A stretch of DNA of 20,904 nt. Origin: Oscillospiraceae bacterium. Its GTDB lineage: Bacteria > Bacillota > Clostridia > Oscillospirales > Acutalibacteraceae. Of this stretch, positions 10,898 to 19,870 are shown one piece after another. Both the position numbers and the translations under genes were made by a program. Under the pieces are notes generated by a model. That model had not been told where the DNA came from. It worked only from the letters and a program-made list of their open reading frames with translations, and searched no databases. Every line of letters starts with the position of its first letter. Positions within the stretch are counted from its first letter, which is position 1. The DNA is taken from NCBI GenBank assembly GCA_902796295.1, contig CADBOL010000072.1:1-20904 (forward strand), given 5' to 3'.

Positions 10898-10926
10898 TTG
10901 AATTTTCGGGCTTTTTGTAGTATAAT
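10898..10926 (+). promoter_or_regulatory. Sigma-A-type promoter of the rightward gene train
   Basis: TTGAAT (10898-10903), a 17-base spacer and a perfect TATAAT (10921-10926) sit in AT-rich DNA upstream of the cysteine desulfurase gene. Transcription would begin near 10933, giving a leader of about 64 bases. The stretch 10818-10897 between the two promoters is very AT-rich, with A- and T-runs that suggest bent DNA, and has no gene. Confidence 0.75.
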
Positions 10927-10964
10927 ACACCGGAATATATGCACATTTTGGAATTTTGCGCGGG

Positions 10965-11000
10965 ATGTTTTTTACGGCCCGGCATACGAAAGGTCGGTGA
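10965..11000 (+). CDS. Possible 11-codon leader peptide
   Basis: ATG at 10965 opens a short frame encoding MFFTARHTKGR, ending in TGA at 10998-11000. That stop overlaps the proposed GTG start of the next gene (10997-10999) as GTGA, an arrangement typical of translational coupling. Its own ribosome site is weak (GCGGG close by), so it could be a chance frame. It would explain how a start codon with a poorly spaced ribosome site is used. Confidence 0.25.
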   Translation: MFFTARHTKGR

Positions 11001-12139
11001 GGGTCACGACGGCTTATCTTGATAACAGCGCTACAACAAAGCCCTGCAGGCAGGCAGTGGATGCCGTCGTTTCCGCTTTGGAAAACGAATGGGGAAACCC
11101 GTCCTCTCTCCACTTTTCGGGCCTGGAAGCTTCGGCCCTTCTCGAGAAATCAAGGAGCGCGGTTGCCTCTTCTCTCATGTGCGGCAGTGATGAGATTTAT
11201 TTCACATCAGGCGGCACGGAGAGCAACAATCTCGCCCTTTACGGAGCGGCTGCGAAGATGCGCCGTTACGGAAACAGGATAGTTTCCACAGCTGTTGAGC
11301 ACCCGAGTGTTTACGAGACGCTATCCGCTCTCGGGAAGGAAGGTTTTGAGATTGTCCGCCTTCCGGTTGACGGATACGGCAGAGTTAATGAAAATGATTT
11401 ATTTGATGCCGTCAATTCCGAAACGATTCTCGTAACCATGATGTATGTCAACAATGAAGTCGGCACAATTCTTCCGGTAAAAGCGCTCAGAAGAGCCGTC
11501 ACAAGAGCAAAAGCTCCCGCTCTTATTCACTGCGATGCAGTTCAGGCTTACGGAAAACTTGAGGTAAGGCCCAAATCCCTGGGCGTTGACCTGATGACCG
11601 TCAGCTCGCATAAGATTCACGGGCCCAAAGGCGCCGGAGCTCTTTATGTCAGCAGAGATGCGGCTTTAATGCCGCGGGTTTTCGGCGGAGAACAGGAGAA
11701 GAAGCTCCGCCCGGGCACACAGGCGATGCCCGCGATTGCCGGATTCGGCGCGGCTGCCGGAGAGCTCAAAGATATAAAAACCAATCTCGAGAGAGTCACT
11801 AACCTGCGCGATTATATGCTCGCGGAGCTTGAAAGAGCCGGAGATATCGCCGTGAATTCACCGCCCGATGCTCTCCCTTATGTTACGAATATTTCCGTTT
11901 TGGGAGTCAAATCCGAGCCGATGCTCAATTATCTCTCATCAAAGGGCATATGCGTCTCGAGCGGTTCCGCCTGCTCAAAGGGCAAAAAGAGCAGGGTGCT
12001 CACGGAGATGGGCCTCAGCCGCGAGAGAGCGGAAACGCCTCTGCGCATAAGCTTCTCGCGCTTCACATCAAAAGAAGAAATCGATTATCTGATTGAGATG
12101 ATTTCTCAGGGCAAAAAAGAAATAAGGAATATCAGATGA
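10997..12139 (+). CDS. Cysteine desulfurase, NifS/IscS family
   Basis: Pyridoxal-phosphate enzyme that takes sulfur from L-cysteine as an enzyme-bound persulfide. YLDNSATTKP opens the fold. The PLP-binding Lys206 lies in SSHKIHGPKG, and the active-site Cys326 in SSGSACSKG, with HCDAVQAYG before them. The 380 residues match the family. Homology begins almost at once, so the start must be near 11000. The frame is open back to a TTG at 10898, but that is the -35 box of the promoter and cannot be translated from it. The GTG at 10997 is the only standard start in the transcribed part, though its GAAAGG site is only 3 bases away. The four-base overlap with thiI implies that it delivers sulfur to ThiI for tRNA thiolation, as in Bacillus NifZ/ThiI pairs. 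Confidence 0.93.
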   Translation: MRVTTAYLDNSATTKPCRQAVDAVVSALENEWGNPSSLHFSGLEASALLEKSRSAVASSLMCGSDEIYFTSGGTESNNLALYGAAAKMRRYGNRIVSTAVEHPSVYETLSALGKEGFEIVRLPVDGYGRVNENDLFDAVNSETILVTMMYVNNEVGTILPVKALRRAVTRAKAPALIHCDAVQAYGKLEVRPKSLGVDLMTVSSHKIHGPKGAGALYVSRDAALMPRVFGGEQEKKLRPGTQAMPAIAGFGAAAGELKDIKTNLERVTNLRDYMLAELERAGDIAVNSPPDALPYVTNISVLGVKSEPMLNYLSSKGICVSSGSACSKGKKSRVLTEMGLSRERAETPLRISFSRFTSKEEIDYLIEMISQGKKEIRNIR

Positions 12140-13308
12140 AAGAAGTATTACTTATAAAAAACGGAGAGCTTGCTCTCAAAGGTCTCAACAGAAGGACTTT
12201 TGAGGATATGCTCATAAAAAACATGAAGCACCGTCTCTCCTCACTGGGAAAATTCAATTTTAACGTTCAGCAGTCCACAATCATAGCCGAGCCCGAGGAT
12301 GAGGAGACCGACCTTGATGCCGCCGTCGAAAAGGTCGGGAAGATATTCGGCATAGCGGCGTTTTCAAGGGCTGTTGCCTGTGAAAAGAATTTTGAGACAA
12401 TCCTCAGGAAGGCGGCCGGTTATCTCGAAGAGGATCTCGAATGTGCCTCCACATTCAAGGTTGAGGCAAAGAGATCGGATAAAAAGTTTCCCCTTACATC
12501 CCCCGAAATATGCAATCAGGCGGGCGGATTCCTGCTTGAGAGATTCCCCCACCTTTCCGTTGACGTTCACAACCCCGATATAGTTGTGAACATTGAAATA
12601 AGAGACACTCACGCATATATCCACGGCAGGCAGATCAAAGGCGCAGGCGGTATGCCGACCGGCTCCGCGGGCAGGGCGCTTCTGCTGATTTCGGGCGGCA
12701 TTGACAGCCCGGTAGCCGGGTATATGATGGCAAAAAGAGGCCTCTCTCTCAGCGCCGTTCATTTTGCCTCTCCTCCGTATACAGGAGAAAAAGCGGAGCA
12801 GAAGGTGCATCAGCTGCTCTCAAAAGTAGCCGCTTATTCGGGCAGAATAGGTCTCTGGGTGGTTCATTTCACCGAGATTCAGGAAAGCATAAAAGACTTC
12901 TGCCCCGAGGATATATTCACCGTGATTATGCGCCGCATGATGATGAGAGTTGCTCAGATAATAGCCGCGAGAGAAAACGCCGGGGCACTCATTACGGGCG
13001 AGAGCGTGGGTCAGGTCGCAAGCCAGACCATGCCGGCAATCGCCTGCACAGACAAGGTATGCGAGATTCCCGTATTCAGACCGCTCATCGGTATGGATAA
13101 GGATGAAGTGATAGATATTTCGCGCAATAAGACAGATACATTTGACCTCTCAATCCTGCCTTATGAGGATTGCTGCACGGTCTTTACCCCGAAGCATCCG
13201 AGAACAAGGCCGACTCTTGACTATGTCGAGAGAGCGGAGGAAGCGTTTGACTGGAAACCGATGGTTGAGAAAGCGGCAGAGACCGCGCGTCTTGTCGTGA
13301 TAGACTGA
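12136..13308 (+). CDS. thiI: tRNA 4-thiouridine synthase ThiI
   Basis: Adenylates uridine-8 of tRNA and inserts sulfur to make 4-thiouridine, a near-UV sensor base; it may also support thiazole synthesis for thiamine. The 390 residues comprise an N-terminal ferredoxin-like part (KNGELALKGLNR, 8-19), a THUMP domain (about 60-165) and the PP-loop ATP-binding domain with SGGIDSP (186-192). There is no C-terminal rhodanese domain, as in Bacillus-type ThiI, so a dedicated cysteine desulfurase is needed; its gene overlaps immediately upstream (ATGA at 12136-12139). AAGGA about 8 bases before the ATG serves as the ribosome site. cinA follows after 10 bases. Confidence 0.97.
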   Translation: MKEVLLIKNGELALKGLNRRTFEDMLIKNMKHRLSSLGKFNFNVQQSTIIAEPEDEETDLDAAVEKVGKIFGIAAFSRAVACEKNFETILRKAAGYLEEDLECASTFKVEAKRSDKKFPLTSPEICNQAGGFLLERFPHLSVDVHNPDIVVNIEIRDTHAYIHGRQIKGAGGMPTGSAGRALLLISGGIDSPVAGYMMAKRGLSLSAVHFASPPYTGEKAEQKVHQLLSKVAAYSGRIGLWVVHFTEIQESIKDFCPEDIFTVIMRRMMMRVAQIIAARENAGALITGESVGQVASQTMPAIACTDKVCEIPVFRPLIGMDKDEVIDISRNKTDTFDLSILPYEDCCTVFTPKHPRTRPTLDYVERAEEAFDWKPMVEKAAETARLVVID

Positions 13309-13318
13309 AAAGAGATTT

Positions 13319-14566
13319 ATGGCGATTTGTGAAATATTATCTGTAGGGACCGAGCTCCTGCTCGGCGACATACTCAACACCAACACTCAGTACCTCTCCC
13401 GCAGGTTTGCGGATATGGGAATTTCCGTGTTTTACCACACGAGTGTGGGGGATAATCCCGAAAGGCTTGCGGGCGCGGTAAGGACCGCGCTCTCAAGGAG
13501 CGATATAGTGATTGCCACGGGAGGCCTCGGGCCCACTCCCGATGATATTACAGCTGAAATATGCTGCAGGGAATTCGGCTTTGAGCTTGAATTTGATAAA
13601 GCGACCGCGGATAAAATCACGGCGTTTTTCATAGCCAAAGGGGTCGAAATGCCTCGGAGCAATCTCAAGCAGGCCTATGTACCCAAAGGCGGCACCGTAC
13701 TTGAAAACACCCACGGCACAGCTCCCGGGATGGGAATGAAAAAAGACGGCAAATGTCTTGTTCTGCTGCCCGGACCGCCTTATGAAATGTCGGAAATATT
13801 TGAAAAGCACGTTGTTCCTTATCTGAGCGAATACCGCTCCGGCGCGATAGTTTCGCACGAAGTAAGAACCATGGGCATAAGCGAGAGCAGGCTCGCCGAG
13901 GAGTTTTCCGATCTGCTCAGCGGCGAAAACCCGACGGTTGCTCCCTACTGCAAAATAGGCGAGGCGCTTCTGAGAGTTACCGCCAGGGCTGATTCCGCCG
14001 AAGAGGCGGAGAGGATGACACAGCAGGTCATAGAAGTCATCCGCGGGAGAATCGGAGAATACATTTACGGGATTGACTGCAAAAACACAGAGGATGCCGC
14101 CGTTCCCATGCTCAGAAAGGCGGGGCTGACGGTTGCGACCGCCGAAAGCTGCACGGGTGGTTTAATAGCAAAGCGGATTACCGATATACCGGGCGCGAGC
14201 GCCGTATTCAAACACGGAGTAATCACCTACGCAAATGAGGTGAAGGTGAGAGAACTCGGAGTCAGTGAAAAAACCCTCTCGGATTACGGAGCCGTAAGCG
14301 AAGAAACGGCGGTTGAAATGGCAAAGGGAATCCGCAGAAAGAGCGGAGCGGATATCGGCCTGTCGGTCACCGGTTTTGCGGGGCCCGACGCAGACGAAGA
14401 CGGCAAATCACCCGGTCTGATATATGTTGCGATTGACGCGCAGGGCTTTACGGAATGCGAAAAAATCGAAACAGGCAGAAACGAGAGAGACTACAACAGA
14501 TATACAGCGGCTTCAAGGGCGCTTAATCTTATCGTAAAATACTTAAAAACGGAGTTAAAGATATGA
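13319..14566 (+). CDS. cinA: CinA, NMN deamidase / competence-damage inducible protein family
   Basis: Two-domain cytoplasmic protein of 415 residues. The N-terminal molybdopterin-binding-like (MoCF/COG1058) domain (1-170) has VGTELLLGDILNTN, TGGLGPTPDD and LLPGPPYEM; in related proteins it has ADP-ribose pyrophosphatase activity. The C-terminal PncC-type domain (about 250-413) has ATAESCTGG with Ser277-Cys278, then VSEETAVEMAKG and SVTGFAGPDA. This half removes the amide of nicotinamide mononucleotide in pyridine-nucleotide recycling. Both halves look intact. The start codon follows thiI by 10 bases with a weak AAGAGA site. The stop overlaps the first sortase (ATGA at 14563-14566). A degenerate relative of this protein appears to form the head of the protein at 17549-19870. 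Confidence 0.96.
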   Translation: MAICEILSVGTELLLGDILNTNTQYLSRRFADMGISVFYHTSVGDNPERLAGAVRTALSRSDIVIATGGLGPTPDDITAEICCREFGFELEFDKATADKITAFFIAKGVEMPRSNLKQAYVPKGGTVLENTHGTAPGMGMKKDGKCLVLLPGPPYEMSEIFEKHVVPYLSEYRSGAIVSHEVRTMGISESRLAEEFSDLLSGENPTVAPYCKIGEALLRVTARADSAEEAERMTQQVIEVIRGRIGEYIYGIDCKNTEDAAVPMLRKAGLTVATAESCTGGLIAKRITDIPGASAVFKHGVITYANEVKVRELGVSEKTLSDYGAVSEETAVEMAKGIRRKSGADIGLSVTGFAGPDADEDGKSPGLIYVAIDAQGFTECEKIETGRNERDYNRYTAASRALNLIVKYLKTELKI

Positions 14567-15552
14567 AGAAAAAGAAGAAGGGCGGCAAAGTTTTTGTAAT
14601 TTTAAGCTGTTTGTTTGCCGCGGCGGCGCTTGTATTTGCCGCGCTGACCGTGATCAACTTCCTGCCCAGGCAGATTACCGTTGTTGAGCACGAGGCGCAG
14701 TATAAACTTGCAGACGGAGCAAATACAAAGGCGCTAACCGATAAGCTTTCGGCAGTCGTATCAAACAACTATAAGTCGGCGAAATTCCCGGACGGGATTC
14801 TGCCGTCTCTCAAACAGGCTTACGCCGTCAACAAGAATCTCATCGGCTGGCTGACAATACCCGGCACAGAGGTTGACACGGCAGTGCTCTGGGCAGACAA
14901 TAATGACAGATATCTCTATTATGATTTTTATGAGACGAGGACCTGGGAAACAACAGGCAGACTCTACGGCTCCCTTTTCCTCGACTACCGCTGTGACAAT
15001 ACCGGCGGTCTGTCAAAGAACACCGTCATTCACGGCCATACGACCGGCAAGTCGGACAATGTGCCCAAACAGGCGTTCCGCTCGCTCTATGATTACAGGA
15101 ATCCGGATCACTACAAGAAGAATCCGTTAATAAAGTATTCGACACTCACAGGAGAATACACATTCAAAATCTGCGCAGTGTTTTATGTCGCGGTTAATCC
15201 GTCGGATGACGCGGGCTACTTCTTCAATTATATTTATCCCGATATGTCCGACAGCAATATGACCGGATATATAGACCAGGTCAAGCAGAGAGCTCTTTAT
15301 GAGACGGGCGTTTCGCTTGAGCCGACAGACAAAATCATCACTCTTTCCACCTGCATCTATGACCTCGGCAAGAGCGTTGACACAAGGCTTGTTGTTCTCG
15401 GACGCCTTCTTCACGAGGGAGAGAGCGAGAGCATAGACACCTCGCTTGTAAAGAACAACCCCGATTTCCGCAGGCCGCAGGTCTGGTACACAAGAAACGG
15501 AAAGACCAATCCTTACACCAACGCGGCAAAATGGGAACCGAGCGCGGAATAA
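14563..15552 (+). CDS. srtB: Class B sortase
   Basis: Membrane-anchored transpeptidase of 329 residues that joins secreted proteins carrying a C-terminal sorting signal to cell wall or pilus subunits. A lysine-rich N-terminus precedes a single signal-anchor helix (about 9-31). The catalytic domain has GWLTIPGTEVDTAV, the catalytic His159 in VIHGHT, Cys264 in TLSTC and Arg275 in TRLVV, the class B order and spacing. GGAG (14551-14554) lies 8 bases before the ATG, and the gene overlaps cinA by four bases. The C-terminus carries an extra tail with PQVWYTRNGKTNPY and a late Trp, which is also present in the next sortase. No protein in the window has an LPXTG- or NPXTG-type sorting signal, so the substrates lie elsewhere. 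Confidence 0.94.
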   Translation: MKKKKKGGKVFVILSCLFAAAALVFAALTVINFLPRQITVVEHEAQYKLADGANTKALTDKLSAVVSNNYKSAKFPDGILPSLKQAYAVNKNLIGWLTIPGTEVDTAVLWADNNDRYLYYDFYETRTWETTGRLYGSLFLDYRCDNTGGLSKNTVIHGHTTGKSDNVPKQAFRSLYDYRNPDHYKKNPLIKYSTLTGEYTFKICAVFYVAVNPSDDAGYFFNYIYPDMSDSNMTGYIDQVKQRALYETGVSLEPTDKIITLSTCIYDLGKSVDTRLVVLGRLLHEGESESIDTSLVKNNPDFRRPQVWYTRNGKTNPYTNAAKWEPSAE

Positions 15553-15631
15553 AGAGCTATACGGTTACGGCAGTAAAAAAATCACCGCGGTGTGAATCAA
15601 TCCATATGTGACACCTGACATCGGAGGTATT
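15553..15631 (+). other. Inter-sortase spacer with a 10-base palindrome
   Basis: The 79-base gap holds CACCGCGGTG (15583-15592), a perfect palindrome preceded by a run of seven A. No T-run follows and no promoter is evident, so a terminator is not supported. It could be an operator or chance. GGAGG at 15623-15627 is the ribosome site of the next gene. Confidence 0.3.
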
Positions 15632-17458
15632 ATGGCAGACGAATTAAACAAATCGTCGGGAGTTCCCGAAGGTATAAGCAGTCTCAGCGATGAGAAGGCT
15701 ATTACCGAGATAGATATAGGCAGCTTCCTGACCGAAAAGGATAACGGCAGTGCTCCGTACGACGGCTACCGTGAGGATATAAGAAAAACCGAGCAGAGCC
15801 TCGAGAATGAAATCCAGAATCTTATGGATGATATCATGAATTCGGGGCCGTCGGTCAATGTGCCCAGACCCGCCGGAGGAGAATCTCCCGCAGGCGATTT
15901 CTGGGCGAGCCCATCGGAGTATATTGATATTTCGCAGTCCAAAAAGAGCGATGCTCCCGCAGGCGCTCCGGCGCCCGAGGTCGGCAAGGACGAGATCCTT
16001 TCAATGATAGACAGCCTCAAGGCCGACACGGACAACAAAGCGGAATTTGACAGCATATTATCCGATATTGAAAAGAATCCGAAGATAAAGCCTGTTGTTC
16101 CTCAGGCACCCGCTCCGGAGAAGCCGAAAAAGAAACCCGCAGGCGGTGTGGACATACACGCCGAGGGGTTTGAGGCGGAGCTCGCCGCTCTTCTCGGCGA
16201 TGAGCCCGCGAAAGAGCCGGAACCTGCTCCCGCTCAGGTTTCACAGCAGGCTCCTCAGCAGATTCCCCGGCAGGTTCCTCAGAGCGAAGGAATTCCGATG
16301 AGGAAAAAGGAGCCTTTCACGGTCAATATTCCGCATGAGCCCTCCGGCGCGGTGGAGATTGCCGCCTCGAGCGTTTCATCCGAGCCACCGGTTCAGGTTT
16401 TCGATCTGCTCGCGGGCAGCGGCGGGAGAACCGTCGGCAATGTTCCGGTAGAGATTATCGAGGATGACGGAAAGCTGACAAAAGAAGAAAAGCGCAGAGC
16501 GAAGATAGACAGAAAGATAGCCGAGGGCAAAAACCCCAAGGTGGGCGAGATTATCAGAAAGATAGTTCTTGTTGCCTCGGTCATCACCATAATCGTCAGC
16601 TCCGCTTTCCTTGTAAAGACATATATCTATGAGCCGATGATGTTCAAAAGGCATCAGTCGGAGGTTCAGAAGATAGTTGTTCAGTCTCCGGAAAACAATA
16701 TCGGGCAGACCGTCGCGCAGGAGGAGTCAAAATATCCTCCCGGGATGCTCGCGAAGTATAAGAAGCTCTATGATATCAACAGCGATCTGCGCGGATGGAT
16801 ATCAATACCCGGCCTTGAAATCGACCTTCCGATCGCTCACGCCGACAATAACGATTTCTATCTGCACAGAAACATCTATAAAAAGAGAACGCAGTACGGT
16901 GTGCCGTTCTTTGATTACAGAATCAAAGATTTCAAAAATCTGCCGAGAAACACGGTGATTTACGGCCACAATATGCACTATGACGATCTGATTTTCGGTA
17001 AGCTTGAGGATTACAGATATCTCAGCGCATTCAAGAAATCCCCCGTCATCGAGTGCAACACCATATACGGAGACTACAGCTGGTTCGTATATGCGGCGTT
17101 TATAACAAATTCACTTCCTTCACAGGATAACGGATACATGTTTACATACAACTGGCTCGACATTTCGGAGAGCAAGTTTGTTGAATATATAAACGAGGTG
17201 AATAAGAGAAGATTTTATGACACCGGAGTCGATATAGCAACGACCGATAAAATCCTCACTCTTTCCACCTGCTGCTATGACTTTGACGGCGCGCGTCTGG
17301 TAATCATCGCAAGGCTCAAGAGAGACGGCGAAGGCGCGGTGCCCGACACATCGCAGGCGGCAAACAACGACAATCCGAAATATCCGCAGGCGTGGTATAA
17401 CGCCAACAAGAAGACCAATCCTTACGCGGATGATTCAAGATGGAGCCCAAACAAATGA
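15632..17458 (+). CDS. Class B sortase with a long cytoplasmic N-terminal extension
   Basis: Protein of 608 residues, more than twice the usual sortase length. Residues 1-310 come before the single membrane helix (about 311-331, LVASVITIIVSSAFLV) and should be cytoplasmic. They are acidic, rich in Pro, Ala and Gln (QVSQQAPQQIPRQVPQ near 200-220), largely disordered-looking, and end in a lysine/arginine-rich helix (KLTKEEKRRAKIDRKI). The outside part is a complete class B sortase with GWISIPGLEIDLPI, His446 in VIYGHN, Cys547 in TLSTCC and Arg555 in ARLVI. The C-terminal tail (PQAWYNANKKTNPY, W) matches that of the first sortase, so the two are probably tandem paralogues. The ATG at 15632 has GGAGG 4 bases upstream; the frame is open to a GTG at 15608 with no site. 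The head may recruit a cytoplasmic partner. I recognise no domain in it. Confidence 0.92.
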   Translation: MADELNKSSGVPEGISSLSDEKAITEIDIGSFLTEKDNGSAPYDGYREDIRKTEQSLENEIQNLMDDIMNSGPSVNVPRPAGGESPAGDFWASPSEYIDISQSKKSDAPAGAPAPEVGKDEILSMIDSLKADTDNKAEFDSILSDIEKNPKIKPVVPQAPAPEKPKKKPAGGVDIHAEGFEAELAALLGDEPAKEPEPAPAQVSQQAPQQIPRQVPQSEGIPMRKKEPFTVNIPHEPSGAVEIAASSVSSEPPVQVFDLLAGSGGRTVGNVPVEIIEDDGKLTKEEKRRAKIDRKIAEGKNPKVGEIIRKIVLVASVITIIVSSAFLVKTYIYEPMMFKRHQSEVQKIVVQSPENNIGQTVAQEESKYPPGMLAKYKKLYDINSDLRGWISIPGLEIDLPIAHADNNDFYLHRNIYKKRTQYGVPFFDYRIKDFKNLPRNTVIYGHNMHYDDLIFGKLEDYRYLSAFKKSPVIECNTIYGDYSWFVYAAFITNSLPSQDNGYMFTYNWLDISESKFVEYINEVNKRRFYDTGVDIATTDKILTLSTCCYDFDGARLVIIARLKRDGEGAVPDTSQAANNDNPKYPQAWYNANKKTNPYADDSRWSPNK

Positions 17459-17548: not shown

Positions 17549-19870
17549 ATGAACGCAAAAGTAAACCTTTACCTTCCGGGAGAAGATGAATACGCGGTTC
17601 CCGCCAGTGTAATATATTCCGAAATAGCCGGAAGGTCTGAGATTGCAGGCGCATTCAAATTCGCATCTGCAGGCGAGGCAGTAAAGCTCGCATGGAAATC
17701 CGCGATGCGCGGTGAAAACACCATAGTGGTGGCCGACGCGGCGAGATTCAACAAGATAAAGCTCCTTATGCTCAAGGCGTTCCCGTCAAAGATTGAGCAT
17801 TCACAGATGATTTCCGGCAGAGTCGGAGATCTGCTTCCGGCAGACTCAAGGGAGCTTAAAACCGAGACAGCCGTTCCCGCGGGAGCTGCCGTCTATCCCT
17901 CGCAGGACGGGTTAAGGTCGGGCTTTTCATTCGATTTCAGAAAAGGCCGGGTTGCTCTTCTCCCTCTCGACATAGAAACTGTCAAGGGCGCTATTGAGAG
18001 AGGAGTCACCGATTTTGCCGCCGCCGAAAAAGGGGAGGCGGATATTCTCAGAGACTGCCTTATCAGAATTCAGCAGAGCGGCAAGACCGTCGGAGTATCC
18101 GATTTCGGTCTGTCAAAGGCTGTATTCAATGTTTCGCAGACCGTTGGTATTGACGGCTCGATATTCACACCCGTTGAGCAGGAAAGCTCACCGGACGGTG
18201 AAATGATAAGGTTTGCCGCGGACGCGGCAAAGGACGCGCGCGATATTTCCTCTTCCGATTACGGGATTGCGATATCGGGAGTGGAAGATGACGGCAGCAT
18301 CACTATCGCTCTTGCCGATGAAAACGCCGCGCGCATCGAGGTTATTCACGCGGCTGAAGGCGAAGAAAAATCACAGACCGCGAAAGCAGCCACCGTGAGA
18401 CTTATGGAGCTCCTTGCCGGAAGTGTTGACGGCGGAGTTGAAGTTCCCGATTTAAAGCCGGTCAGAAACAGTTCAAAGCCGCTGATAGCAATCATTGTCT
18501 GCCTTGCCGCCGCCGCGCTTATCTGCCTCGGAGTGGGCATCGCGGTATTCAGGAGCAGCGTAAGCAGAAGCAAGCCCGCTTCCGAGAGCACATCAGCCGA
18601 TGTTGTAACAACCGAAGTGTCTGTGACCGACGCCCCGGAAACGGAGCTCGGCGATGAATTCGGAGAGGTTGTGCCGGTTTTTGAAGCGACATATACCGAT
18701 TCGGCGGTGTTTGACGAAATAAACACCACATACAGCGGAGGAGGCGTGAGAACAAACGCCGCCAACGGTCAGTTCACGACCGATTCCTCCGGCATCATAG
18801 AGAATATGAGGTCGGGGTCCACAACCCTGAAGGTCGCTTCTACAATATCCGGAGCGATTTCTTCGCTGATTGCCGAAATAGACAGCACCACCGGCGTCAG
18901 TTCTCCGGAAGGTGAAAGCACCACTCTCGCCGACGGCTCAAGCACCAGCAGGGAGCGCTCAACCAGAGAGAGGACCACCCGAGAGAGAATTACAAGATCA
19001 ACAACGGCCGCAACAACACAGAGCACTTCCGCCGAAAAGACAGGCGGGGCCAAAGGTCAGGGCAAGTTTGTCTTTACATGTTACGGCTACGGTCACGGTG
19101 TCGGAATGAGCCAGCGCGGCGCGATTGCCTACGCCAATAAAGGGTGGAACTGCAATCAGATACTCACGCACTACTACCAGGGCACAACGCTTATGGTGGA
19201 TAAAAATACTCCCGCCGAGGTAACAAGACAGGGAGTCAAGATGACTCTTGTCGCCTTCCTCTGCAGGACCGTAAAGCCGGAAATAGGACACAACTCTCCC
19301 TACGAGGCGCTCAAAGCGCAGGCGATAGCCGCCTATACTTTCGGCATGTATAACAGCTTCAACTCAAACCAGGCGTTTGACCCCTATTTCAGCTATAAGG
19401 GCACTCAGGTTGAGAAGGCCGTTTTTGATGTGCTCCACATCAAATCGGAGGATGAACAGCCCCACGCCGTTTATGTAAGCTATAACGGCAAATACGCCAA
19501 CACGGTTTACTGCGCATCGGTCGCGGGCAAGACCGCTTCATCGAGATCGGTATGGGGAATGAGCCTGCCTTACCTCAACGGCGGCGTGACAAGCCCCGAG
19601 ACCGTTGAAATCAGCACGGCGGAGTTTACGGTTGAGCGCATGAGAACCCTTATCAGAGCTGTCTGCGGAGACAGGGCAGAGCTCAATAACGATCCGTCGA
19701 CCTGGCTCAAAATCCTCTATCACGACGGCGCATACAGCAATTCAATCGGCTATGTAGATCAGATTAATGTCTGCGGCGTTGCAATGAGCGGAAACAATTT
19801 CCGCGAGAAGCTGCTCGGCAGATCAATCAAATCCGAGTGTTTCACAATCAAGTATGTCCGTTTCCAGTAA
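17549..19870 (+). CDS. Membrane protein: degenerate CinA-like head plus permuted SpoIID/LytB domain
   Basis: Predicted 773-residue protein spanning the membrane once. Residues 1-309 (cytoplasmic) follow the CinA plan. An MoCF-like half has a VPAGAAV...GRVALLP pattern like CinA VPKGGTV...KCLVLLP. A PncC-like half (about 163-290) has SGKTVGVSDFGLS where CinA has AGLTVATAESCTGG, then DYGIAISGV and a strand-helix end. The catalytic motifs are lost, so it is probably a pseudoenzyme or binding domain. The membrane helix is about 311-335. A Ser/Thr-rich linker (336-505) includes an R-E-R repeat. The outside domain begins with YGYGHGVGMSQ (512-522), then Glu578 and EALKAQAIAA, and ends near FTI. In ordinary SpoIID/LytB lytic transglycosylases the GYGHGVGMSQ motif comes last, so the order is permuted. 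Seven Cys lie in this domain. ATG 17549 is preferred over GTG 17540, which overlaps the AGGGG site. Likely role: cutting or sensing glycan strands at the wall. Confidence 0.85.
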   Translation: MNAKVNLYLPGEDEYAVPASVIYSEIAGRSEIAGAFKFASAGEAVKLAWKSAMRGENTIVVADAARFNKIKLLMLKAFPSKIEHSQMISGRVGDLLPADSRELKTETAVPAGAAVYPSQDGLRSGFSFDFRKGRVALLPLDIETVKGAIERGVTDFAAAEKGEADILRDCLIRIQQSGKTVGVSDFGLSKAVFNVSQTVGIDGSIFTPVEQESSPDGEMIRFAADAAKDARDISSSDYGIAISGVEDDGSITIALADENAARIEVIHAAEGEEKSQTAKAATVRLMELLAGSVDGGVEVPDLKPVRNSSKPLIAIIVCLAAAALICLGVGIAVFRSSVSRSKPASESTSADVVTTEVSVTDAPETELGDEFGEVVPVFEATYTDSAVFDEINTTYSGGGVRTNAANGQFTTDSSGIIENMRSGSTTLKVASTISGAISSLIAEIDSTTGVSSPEGESTTLADGSSTSRERSTRERTTRERITRSTTAATTQSTSAEKTGGAKGQGKFVFTCYGYGHGVGMSQRGAIAYANKGWNCNQILTHYYQGTTLMVDKNTPAEVTRQGVKMTLVAFLCRTVKPEIGHNSPYEALKAQAIAAYTFGMYNSFNSNQAFDPYFSYKGTQVEKAVFDVLHIKSEDEQPHAVYVSYNGKYANTVYCASVAGKTASSRSVWGMSLPYLNGGVTSPETVEISTAEFTVERMRTLIRAVCGDRAELNNDPSTWLKILYHDGAYSNSIGYVDQINVCGVAMSGNNFREKLLGRSIKSECFTIKYVRFQ

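Follow-up and report, generated by a model that had tools for sequence, protein, structure and literature searches.

CinA is usually studied as an enzyme of pyridine-nucleotide (NAD) recycling, and the Thermus protein is dimeric. In the Thermus CinA study (PMC4246079) both folds of the enzyme bind nucleotides, the residues named are the general base Lys301 together with Thr340, Tyr296 and Arg377, and Glu187 of the KH domain closes the ADP-ribose site. The sporulation protein SpoIID of C. difficile needs Glu101, according to PMC6221140. The account of Glp (PMC10522489) describes a MoeA that was repurposed as a scaffold of the divisome and works with a membrane receptor, a precedent for the conversion of a MoeA-type enzyme into a scaffold.

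Organization of the locus and the 773-residue protein

The window, which is the whole 20,904-nucleotide stretch of DNA analyzed, carries a gene whose product joins a CinA-like N-terminal part, here termed the head, through a predicted membrane helix to a SpoIID domain. A true cinA lies three genes upstream as originally reported, the order being cinA, srt1, srt2, head. The features are as follows.

10898..12139, + strand, iscS-like cysteine desulfurase gene, conserved operon position, named by reading of the sequence
12136..13308, + strand, thiI-like gene, conserved operon position, named in the same way
13319..14566, + strand, cinA, intact MoCF-KH-PncC
14563..15552, + strand, srt1, sortase (PF04203, E 1.2e-8)
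15608..17458, + strand, srt2, sortase directly upstream of the head (PF04203, E 5.3e-9), membrane helix at about residue 319
17549..19870, + strand, head/membrane helix/SpoIID gene, 773 amino acids, CinA-like head, start set at MNAK (mechanical open reading frame from 17540)
17549..18016, + strand, half of the head resembling MoCF (COG1058), residues 1-156
18029..18439, + strand, PncC-like half of the head, residues 161-297
18482..18556, + strand, predicted membrane helix, residues 312-336 (hydropathy and full model)
18557..19048, + strand, Ser/Thr-rich linker, residues 337-500, predicted disordered (pLDDT below 50 at 337-501)
19049..19192, + strand, GYGHGVGMSQ segment of SpoIID, residues 501-548, ahead of the core (circular permutation)
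19205..19867, + strand, SpoIID core, residues 553-773, with Glu578 at 19280-19282

The highest 19-residue hydropathy value of the protein is 2.92 at residue 313, compared with 0.92 in residues 1-305 and 1.2 in residues 345-773, and the full predicted model has a helix at 310-338. As a single predicted helix separates the two parts, we infer that the head is cytoplasmic and the SpoIID domain lies outside. The head extends from 17549 to about 18439, and the span of 17600-18420 first given for it is slightly tight. The nearest public protein to the 773-residue sequence is annotated "hypothetical protein" and comes from a Clostridia bacterium MAG.

The head is a CinA derivative

The original prediction traced both halves of CinA by eye, and this assignment holds across residues 1-297, where the MoCF and PncC parts follow each other in the CinA order with both profile and structure matches. 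All of the motifs that had been read fall within the one 773-residue frame, with VPAGAAV...RVALLP at 109-139, SGKTVGVSDFGLS at 177-189 and DYGIAISGV at 237-245, and the C-terminal helix corresponds to the last head helix of the AlphaFold2 model (274-295). Comparison with the window's own CinA by hhalign pairs these motifs with the matching places of the enzyme (VPAGAAV with VPKGGTV, ALLP with VLLP, SGKTV with AGLTV and DYGIAISG with DIGLSVTG).

The relationship is seen at the level of profiles and structure. As a single sequence the head has no match in Pfam, NCBIfam or the PDB (phmmer), and BLASTP against the window's own CinA gives E 1.0 only. The lack of a single-sequence match is what a chance likeness of a generic alpha/beta domain has in its favor. 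When 5.8 billion proteins were searched with the 773-residue sequence, three came up, all close, a small number because scoring was limited to the 7995 candidates with the most words in common. The profile built from 44 aligned heads of 46 (L035 and L039, which have the PncC half only, were omitted) aligns with six CinAs in one colinear alignment of 263 columns that bypasses the KH domain (hhalign probability 97.6%, E 3.5e-12), and with a larger CinA set at 98.4% and a score of 111.7, whereas the controls stay at or below 27.6 (seven other families), 22.7 (100 column shuffles) and 18.3 (reversed profile). Its best match in the PDB is 6mr3 (E 0.014), and among 7999 scored public proteins it finds 10 family members and a single outside match at E<=1, a CinA at E 0.11. 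Run over whole genomes the head profile finds CinA genes blindly: it matches in 80 of 295 genomes of the order, where five strong matches are heads and all of the weak ones fetched as loci are CinA (25/25), and in 22 of 391 genomes of the class, one of which is the window's own head and the others, where fetched, are CinA (14/14). The structure search, chosen beforehand as the test on which the assignment could fail, matched CinA and gave no confident match to another fold; the AlphaFold2 model of the head has a pLDDT of 86.7, and all 18 PDB matches at E<=0.001 are CinA entries. The profile controls, the order of both halves, the PDB matches and the blind recovery of CinA genes contradict a chance likeness, the probability of which is close to nil, and the head is a CinA derivative that retains the MoCF and PncC folds and has lost the KH domain.

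Active-site residues

The TGGLGPTPDD and AESCTGG motifs are absent from the head in the alignment to CinA, in agreement with the first reading. The numbering of the Thermus residues, taken from the study cited above, was transferred through alignment to the window's CinA. In the heads the GGLGPTxDD site of the COG1058 domain is replaced, the KH domain with its conserved Glu has no counterpart in the alignment, and a counterpart of Tyr296 is likewise absent. The Lys301 position is Lys in just 5 of 44 heads, in a loop whose alignment is uncertain, and the Arg377 region is not conserved, its place being extrapolated past the aligned end. The Thr340 position, which some CinAs fill with Ser, is retained: of the 44 heads, 41 have Ser there (Ser243 in the window's head) and three have Thr. 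With the active-site motifs of CinA gone, the head is predicted to be catalytically dead. Lys71 is invariant across the 44 head rows and aligns beside the lost Asp-Asp motif, a position at which it could contribute to altered ligand binding.

Selection and origin of the head

Of 148 related genomes, the window's own included, 46 carry the head. Its dN/dS lies between 0.09 and 0.25 in 12 of 12 orthologue pairs, values that are rough in nine of the 12 because dS exceeds 1. The description of the head as a "decayed" CinA therefore stands for the catalytic motifs and fails for decay as such, given purifying selection and the carriage of the domain by these genomes. The same data bear on the reading of the head as a decaying pseudo-CinA carried as a functionless passenger, for which the loss of the active-site motifs speaks; the low dN/dS in every pair, the confident predicted fold and the operon neighbor shared, where testable, by 50 distinct head rows make it very improbable.

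A tree of 16 sampled heads and 37 CinAs, the latter comprising 31 stand-alone proteins (thinned from 74) and six fused to a sortase, places the heads in one clade with support of 100/100, apart from the CinAs and on long branches; the fusions L121, L159 and L165, each of which lacks a CinA half, were omitted. The degenerate fused CinA of L118 adjoins the heads in this tree, at a point where the program warns that long branches meet. Heads are present in several genera, which together with the single clade means that the head/CinA split is older than the genus, and in the samples of relatives, order and class the head-family matches are confined to the window's own family, f1. Scored with the head profile, 76 stand-alone CinAs reach a maximum of 64.9 (median 37.4) and 12 fused rows, in which some genes are counted twice under two loci, a maximum of 56.6, so these scores do not discriminate between free and fused CinA as the source of the head. 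The proposed duplication of cinA, taken as a recent local event, does not fit this tree with its long branches; an old cinA duplication is the simplest source of the head.

The SpoIID domain is permuted

The C-terminal part of the protein scores above the curated cut-offs for the SpoIID/LytB domain (TIGR02669, 125.9 bits against 83.3; PF08486, 29.2 against 23) and does not reach the equivalog cut-off for SpoIID sensu stricto (TIGR02870, 90.1 bits against 234.75). Foldseek with the full model has no SpoIID chain among the 50 matches listed, and the SpoIID match was obtained by VIA-align and phmmer. In the latter, residues 59-185 of the searched fragment align to residues 80-222 of C. difficile SpoIID (PDB code 5txu) and residues 5-49 to its residues 305-349, so a C-terminal segment has moved to the front, and the outer domain reads as circularly permuted and departs from the canonical segment order. 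Glu578 aligns with the catalytic Glu101 of the C. difficile enzyme.

A motif scan of 71 family proteins gives 37 permuted rows, 10 canonical rows and 24 without one or both of the motif patterns. Judged by eye from the motif context, all 37 permuted rows have the catalytic Glu, and eight of the 10 canonical ones are without it. The permutation is natural and occurs within one family, whose members have similar heads and the same operon slot where mapped, the canonical proteins being P0015-P0023 and P0025. Proteins P0015-P0022 have the canonical order, no Glu at the catalytic position and a GSGVG-type sequence in place of GHGVG, and are possible pseudo-SpoIIDs.

In a difference from the known SpoIID systems, neither Spo0A_C nor SpoIIP is detected in 14 of the 31 genomes of G000-G036 that have a head, including that of the window; six of the 14 are more than 90% complete and the window's own is 79% complete. 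The remaining 17 have Spo0A_C and/or SpoIIP. A sporulation role in the window's clade is unlikely on this basis, and the protein there presumably acts in growing cells and not in engulfment.

A sortase is the constant neighbor of the head

Both srt1 and srt2 are assigned to Sortase by Pfam and, as read from their sequences, may be of class B. The srt2 protein has about 315 residues ahead of its membrane helix. The last of these include the sequence GEIIRKI, which is also present in the fusion L118 and, in a less exact form, in L119.

The head set comprises 50 distinct rows. A same-strand sortase frame ends within 400 nucleotides of the head's frame in all 47 loci with more than 400 nucleotides of upstream sequence, and all 34 loci with more than 4 kb have a cinA or pncC gene in the same orientation at a distance of 1.2 to 4.8 kb upstream. 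SpoIID is in the head's frame in 42 of the 50 rows (L028 and L083 being one gene in two records) and absent from it in eight, seven of which are complete and one of which, L131, is cut by the contig end. The constant neighbor of the head is thus a sortase and not SpoIID, a point overlooked in the original prediction. Three complete heads (L126, L129 and L132) have neither SpoIID nor, by hydropathy, a membrane helix and still lie behind a sortase, from which the head can probably be soluble at times; L126 has a separate SpoIID gene after its SpoIID-less head.

Two loci (L122:1605-3386 and L123:2062-3711) have heads cut down to the PncC-like half, with SpoIID kept and sortases still in front. 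The loci L125, L128, L130, L132, L134 and L135 keep the head and have an operon cinA reduced to PncC alone, 155-182 amino acids in length.

Adjacency to a sortase as an ordinary trait of CinA was considered and rejected, as none of 14 CinAs sampled from the class outside this order has a sortase next to it. Within the order, 22 of the 31 CinAs of other families with enough sequence have no sortase beside them, in a sample biased to fusions because long frames were fetched on purpose.

CinA-sortase fusions

Proteins composed of CinA or part of it, a hydrophobic helix and a sortase occur in at least nine fetched genomes (G243, G324, G256, G125, G103, G139, G134, G092 and G111) of six families (f1, f26, f15, f9, f4 and f23); two further long CinA frames (G116 and G154) are outside this count. 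The CinA-membrane helix-sortase fusions are located as follows.

L119:925-4044, L120:2435-5704, L160:52-2466, L161:2585-4819, L162:2337-4574, both CinA motifs intact
L118:2672-5347, L121:3063-5933, L159:5202-7925, L165:3616-5424

Pfam, applied to eight of the nine proteins, finds sortase in all eight and PncC in six. Fusion L118 has MoCF and KH by Pfam and is without PF02464, and in L121 Pfam recovers sortase and SpoIID, the CinA part scoring only with our profiles of CinA (43 bits) and of the head (18 bits). Besides the five of nine fusions that keep both CinA motifs, two keep AESCTGG alone (PncC only) and two keep neither in full. Mapped onto the tree, the fusion label of the six sampled proteins needs five changes, so joining or splitting occurred repeatedly. 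In L118 the CinA motifs are degenerate and the cysteine position of the sortase TLxTC motif reads LATP, so both of its enzymes may be dead.

Possible functions of the head

The reading we lean toward, and consider somewhat more probable than not, is that the head is a CinA-fold adaptor that keeps SpoIID within a complex of CinA and sortase. Its partner would be a second head, the operon's CinA or the cytoplasmic part of the sortase, and this pairing would bring SpoIID next to the sortase, with glycans trimmed and proteins anchored in the same place. Other families of the order would make the link by a direct fusion of CinA to the sortase, in one case with SpoIID as well. The invariable upstream sortase (47/47) and cinA or pncC (34/34), the fusions, the selection on the head and the Glu kept in 37/37 permuted SpoIIDs argue for such an adaptor, as do the heads of L126, L129 and L132, which follow a sortase even without SpoIID and a membrane helix. 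Against it, the operon neighborhood can reflect co-expression only, and the activity of CinA, beyond its fold, may matter to the sortase, because five of nine fusions keep both motifs and two more the PncC motif. The loss of the SpoIID Glu in one clade (8/10 canonical rows) also means that co-located cutting is not universal. The fusions, in addition, come from genomes picked for long frames, and most CinAs examined in the other families of the order (22/31) stand without a sortase.

A metabolite sensor, the function suggested in the original prediction, accounts equally well for the selection. In this reading a nucleotide such as NMN or ADP-ribose would bind to the head, which would signal through the membrane helix to SpoIID. 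The sensor draws on the nucleotide binding of both CinA folds (PMC4246079), on the Ser or Thr at the Thr340 position in 44/44 heads and the Lys71 invariant in the same 44 rows, and on the motif-intact CinAs fused to sortase elsewhere (L119, L120, L160, L161 and L162). However, the nucleotide-contacting residues of Thermus CinA are mostly gone from the heads, with Lys at the Lys301 position in only 5/44 and no conserved counterpart of Tyr296, the Arg of the Arg377 region, GGLGPT/DD or the KH domain, and the long disordered linker (337-501) makes a poor rod for a signal, which leaves the sensor a doubtful though serious candidate. It is unlikely that the head chiefly regulates or localizes the sortase, with SpoIID as an accessory, a later addition or at times dispensable: the sortase neighbors the head in every testable locus (47/47), eight of 50 rows have no SpoIID in frame (seven complete, three of these without a membrane helix) and the catalytic Glu is lost in 8/10 canonical rows, whereas SpoIID is fused to the head in 42 of 50 rows and its Glu is kept in the permuted ones.

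The operon and fusion pattern suggests that CinA and wall enzymes are linked in a way not described in the open-access text searched. More tentatively, CinA may be, in this clostridial order, a cytoplasmic hub that ties sortase and permuted SpoIID into one transmembrane complex by fusion, by operon or by way of dead heads, and through which the state of NAD recycling may govern anchoring and trimming at the wall. With a dead CinA carried by a wall enzyme, and with CinA joined to sortase repeatedly, the protein would have a second role, in the cell envelope, parallel to MoeA giving rise to the divisome scaffold Glp. Searches of open-access full text, with subscription papers mostly outside their scope, gave no link of CinA to srtB, SpoIID or pseudoenzymes and no circular permutation of SpoIID, and the papers that name both CinA and sortase do not, by title, deal with such a link.

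Comparison with known systems

The head shares both catalytic folds, in the same order, with the CinAs of Thermus thermophilus (PDB codes 4ct8 and 4uux) and Streptococcus mutans (6mr3), and differs from the COG1058/MoCF-KH-PncC arrangement in the absence of the KH domain and active-site motifs and in the membrane helix and SpoIID that follow. The SpoIID domain has the core fold and the catalytic Glu position of the lytic transglycosylase SpoIID of C. difficile (5i1t and 5txu) and B. anthracis (4rwr), the differences being the GHGVGMSQ segment placed before the core and the CinA-like head. Glp/GlpR of Corynebacterium, as described in PMC10522489, is similar in that a molybdenum-cofactor-type enzyme is recruited to a membrane-associated wall or division machine; the enzyme there is MoeA rather than CinA, and the membrane receptor of Glp is a separate protein. 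The CinA-sortase fusions of the same order share the succession of CinA or part of it, a membrane helix and a wall enzyme, and iscS and thiI genes adjoin most of them as in the head operon, whereas a sortase takes the place of SpoIID (L121 having both) and the CinA motifs are intact in several.
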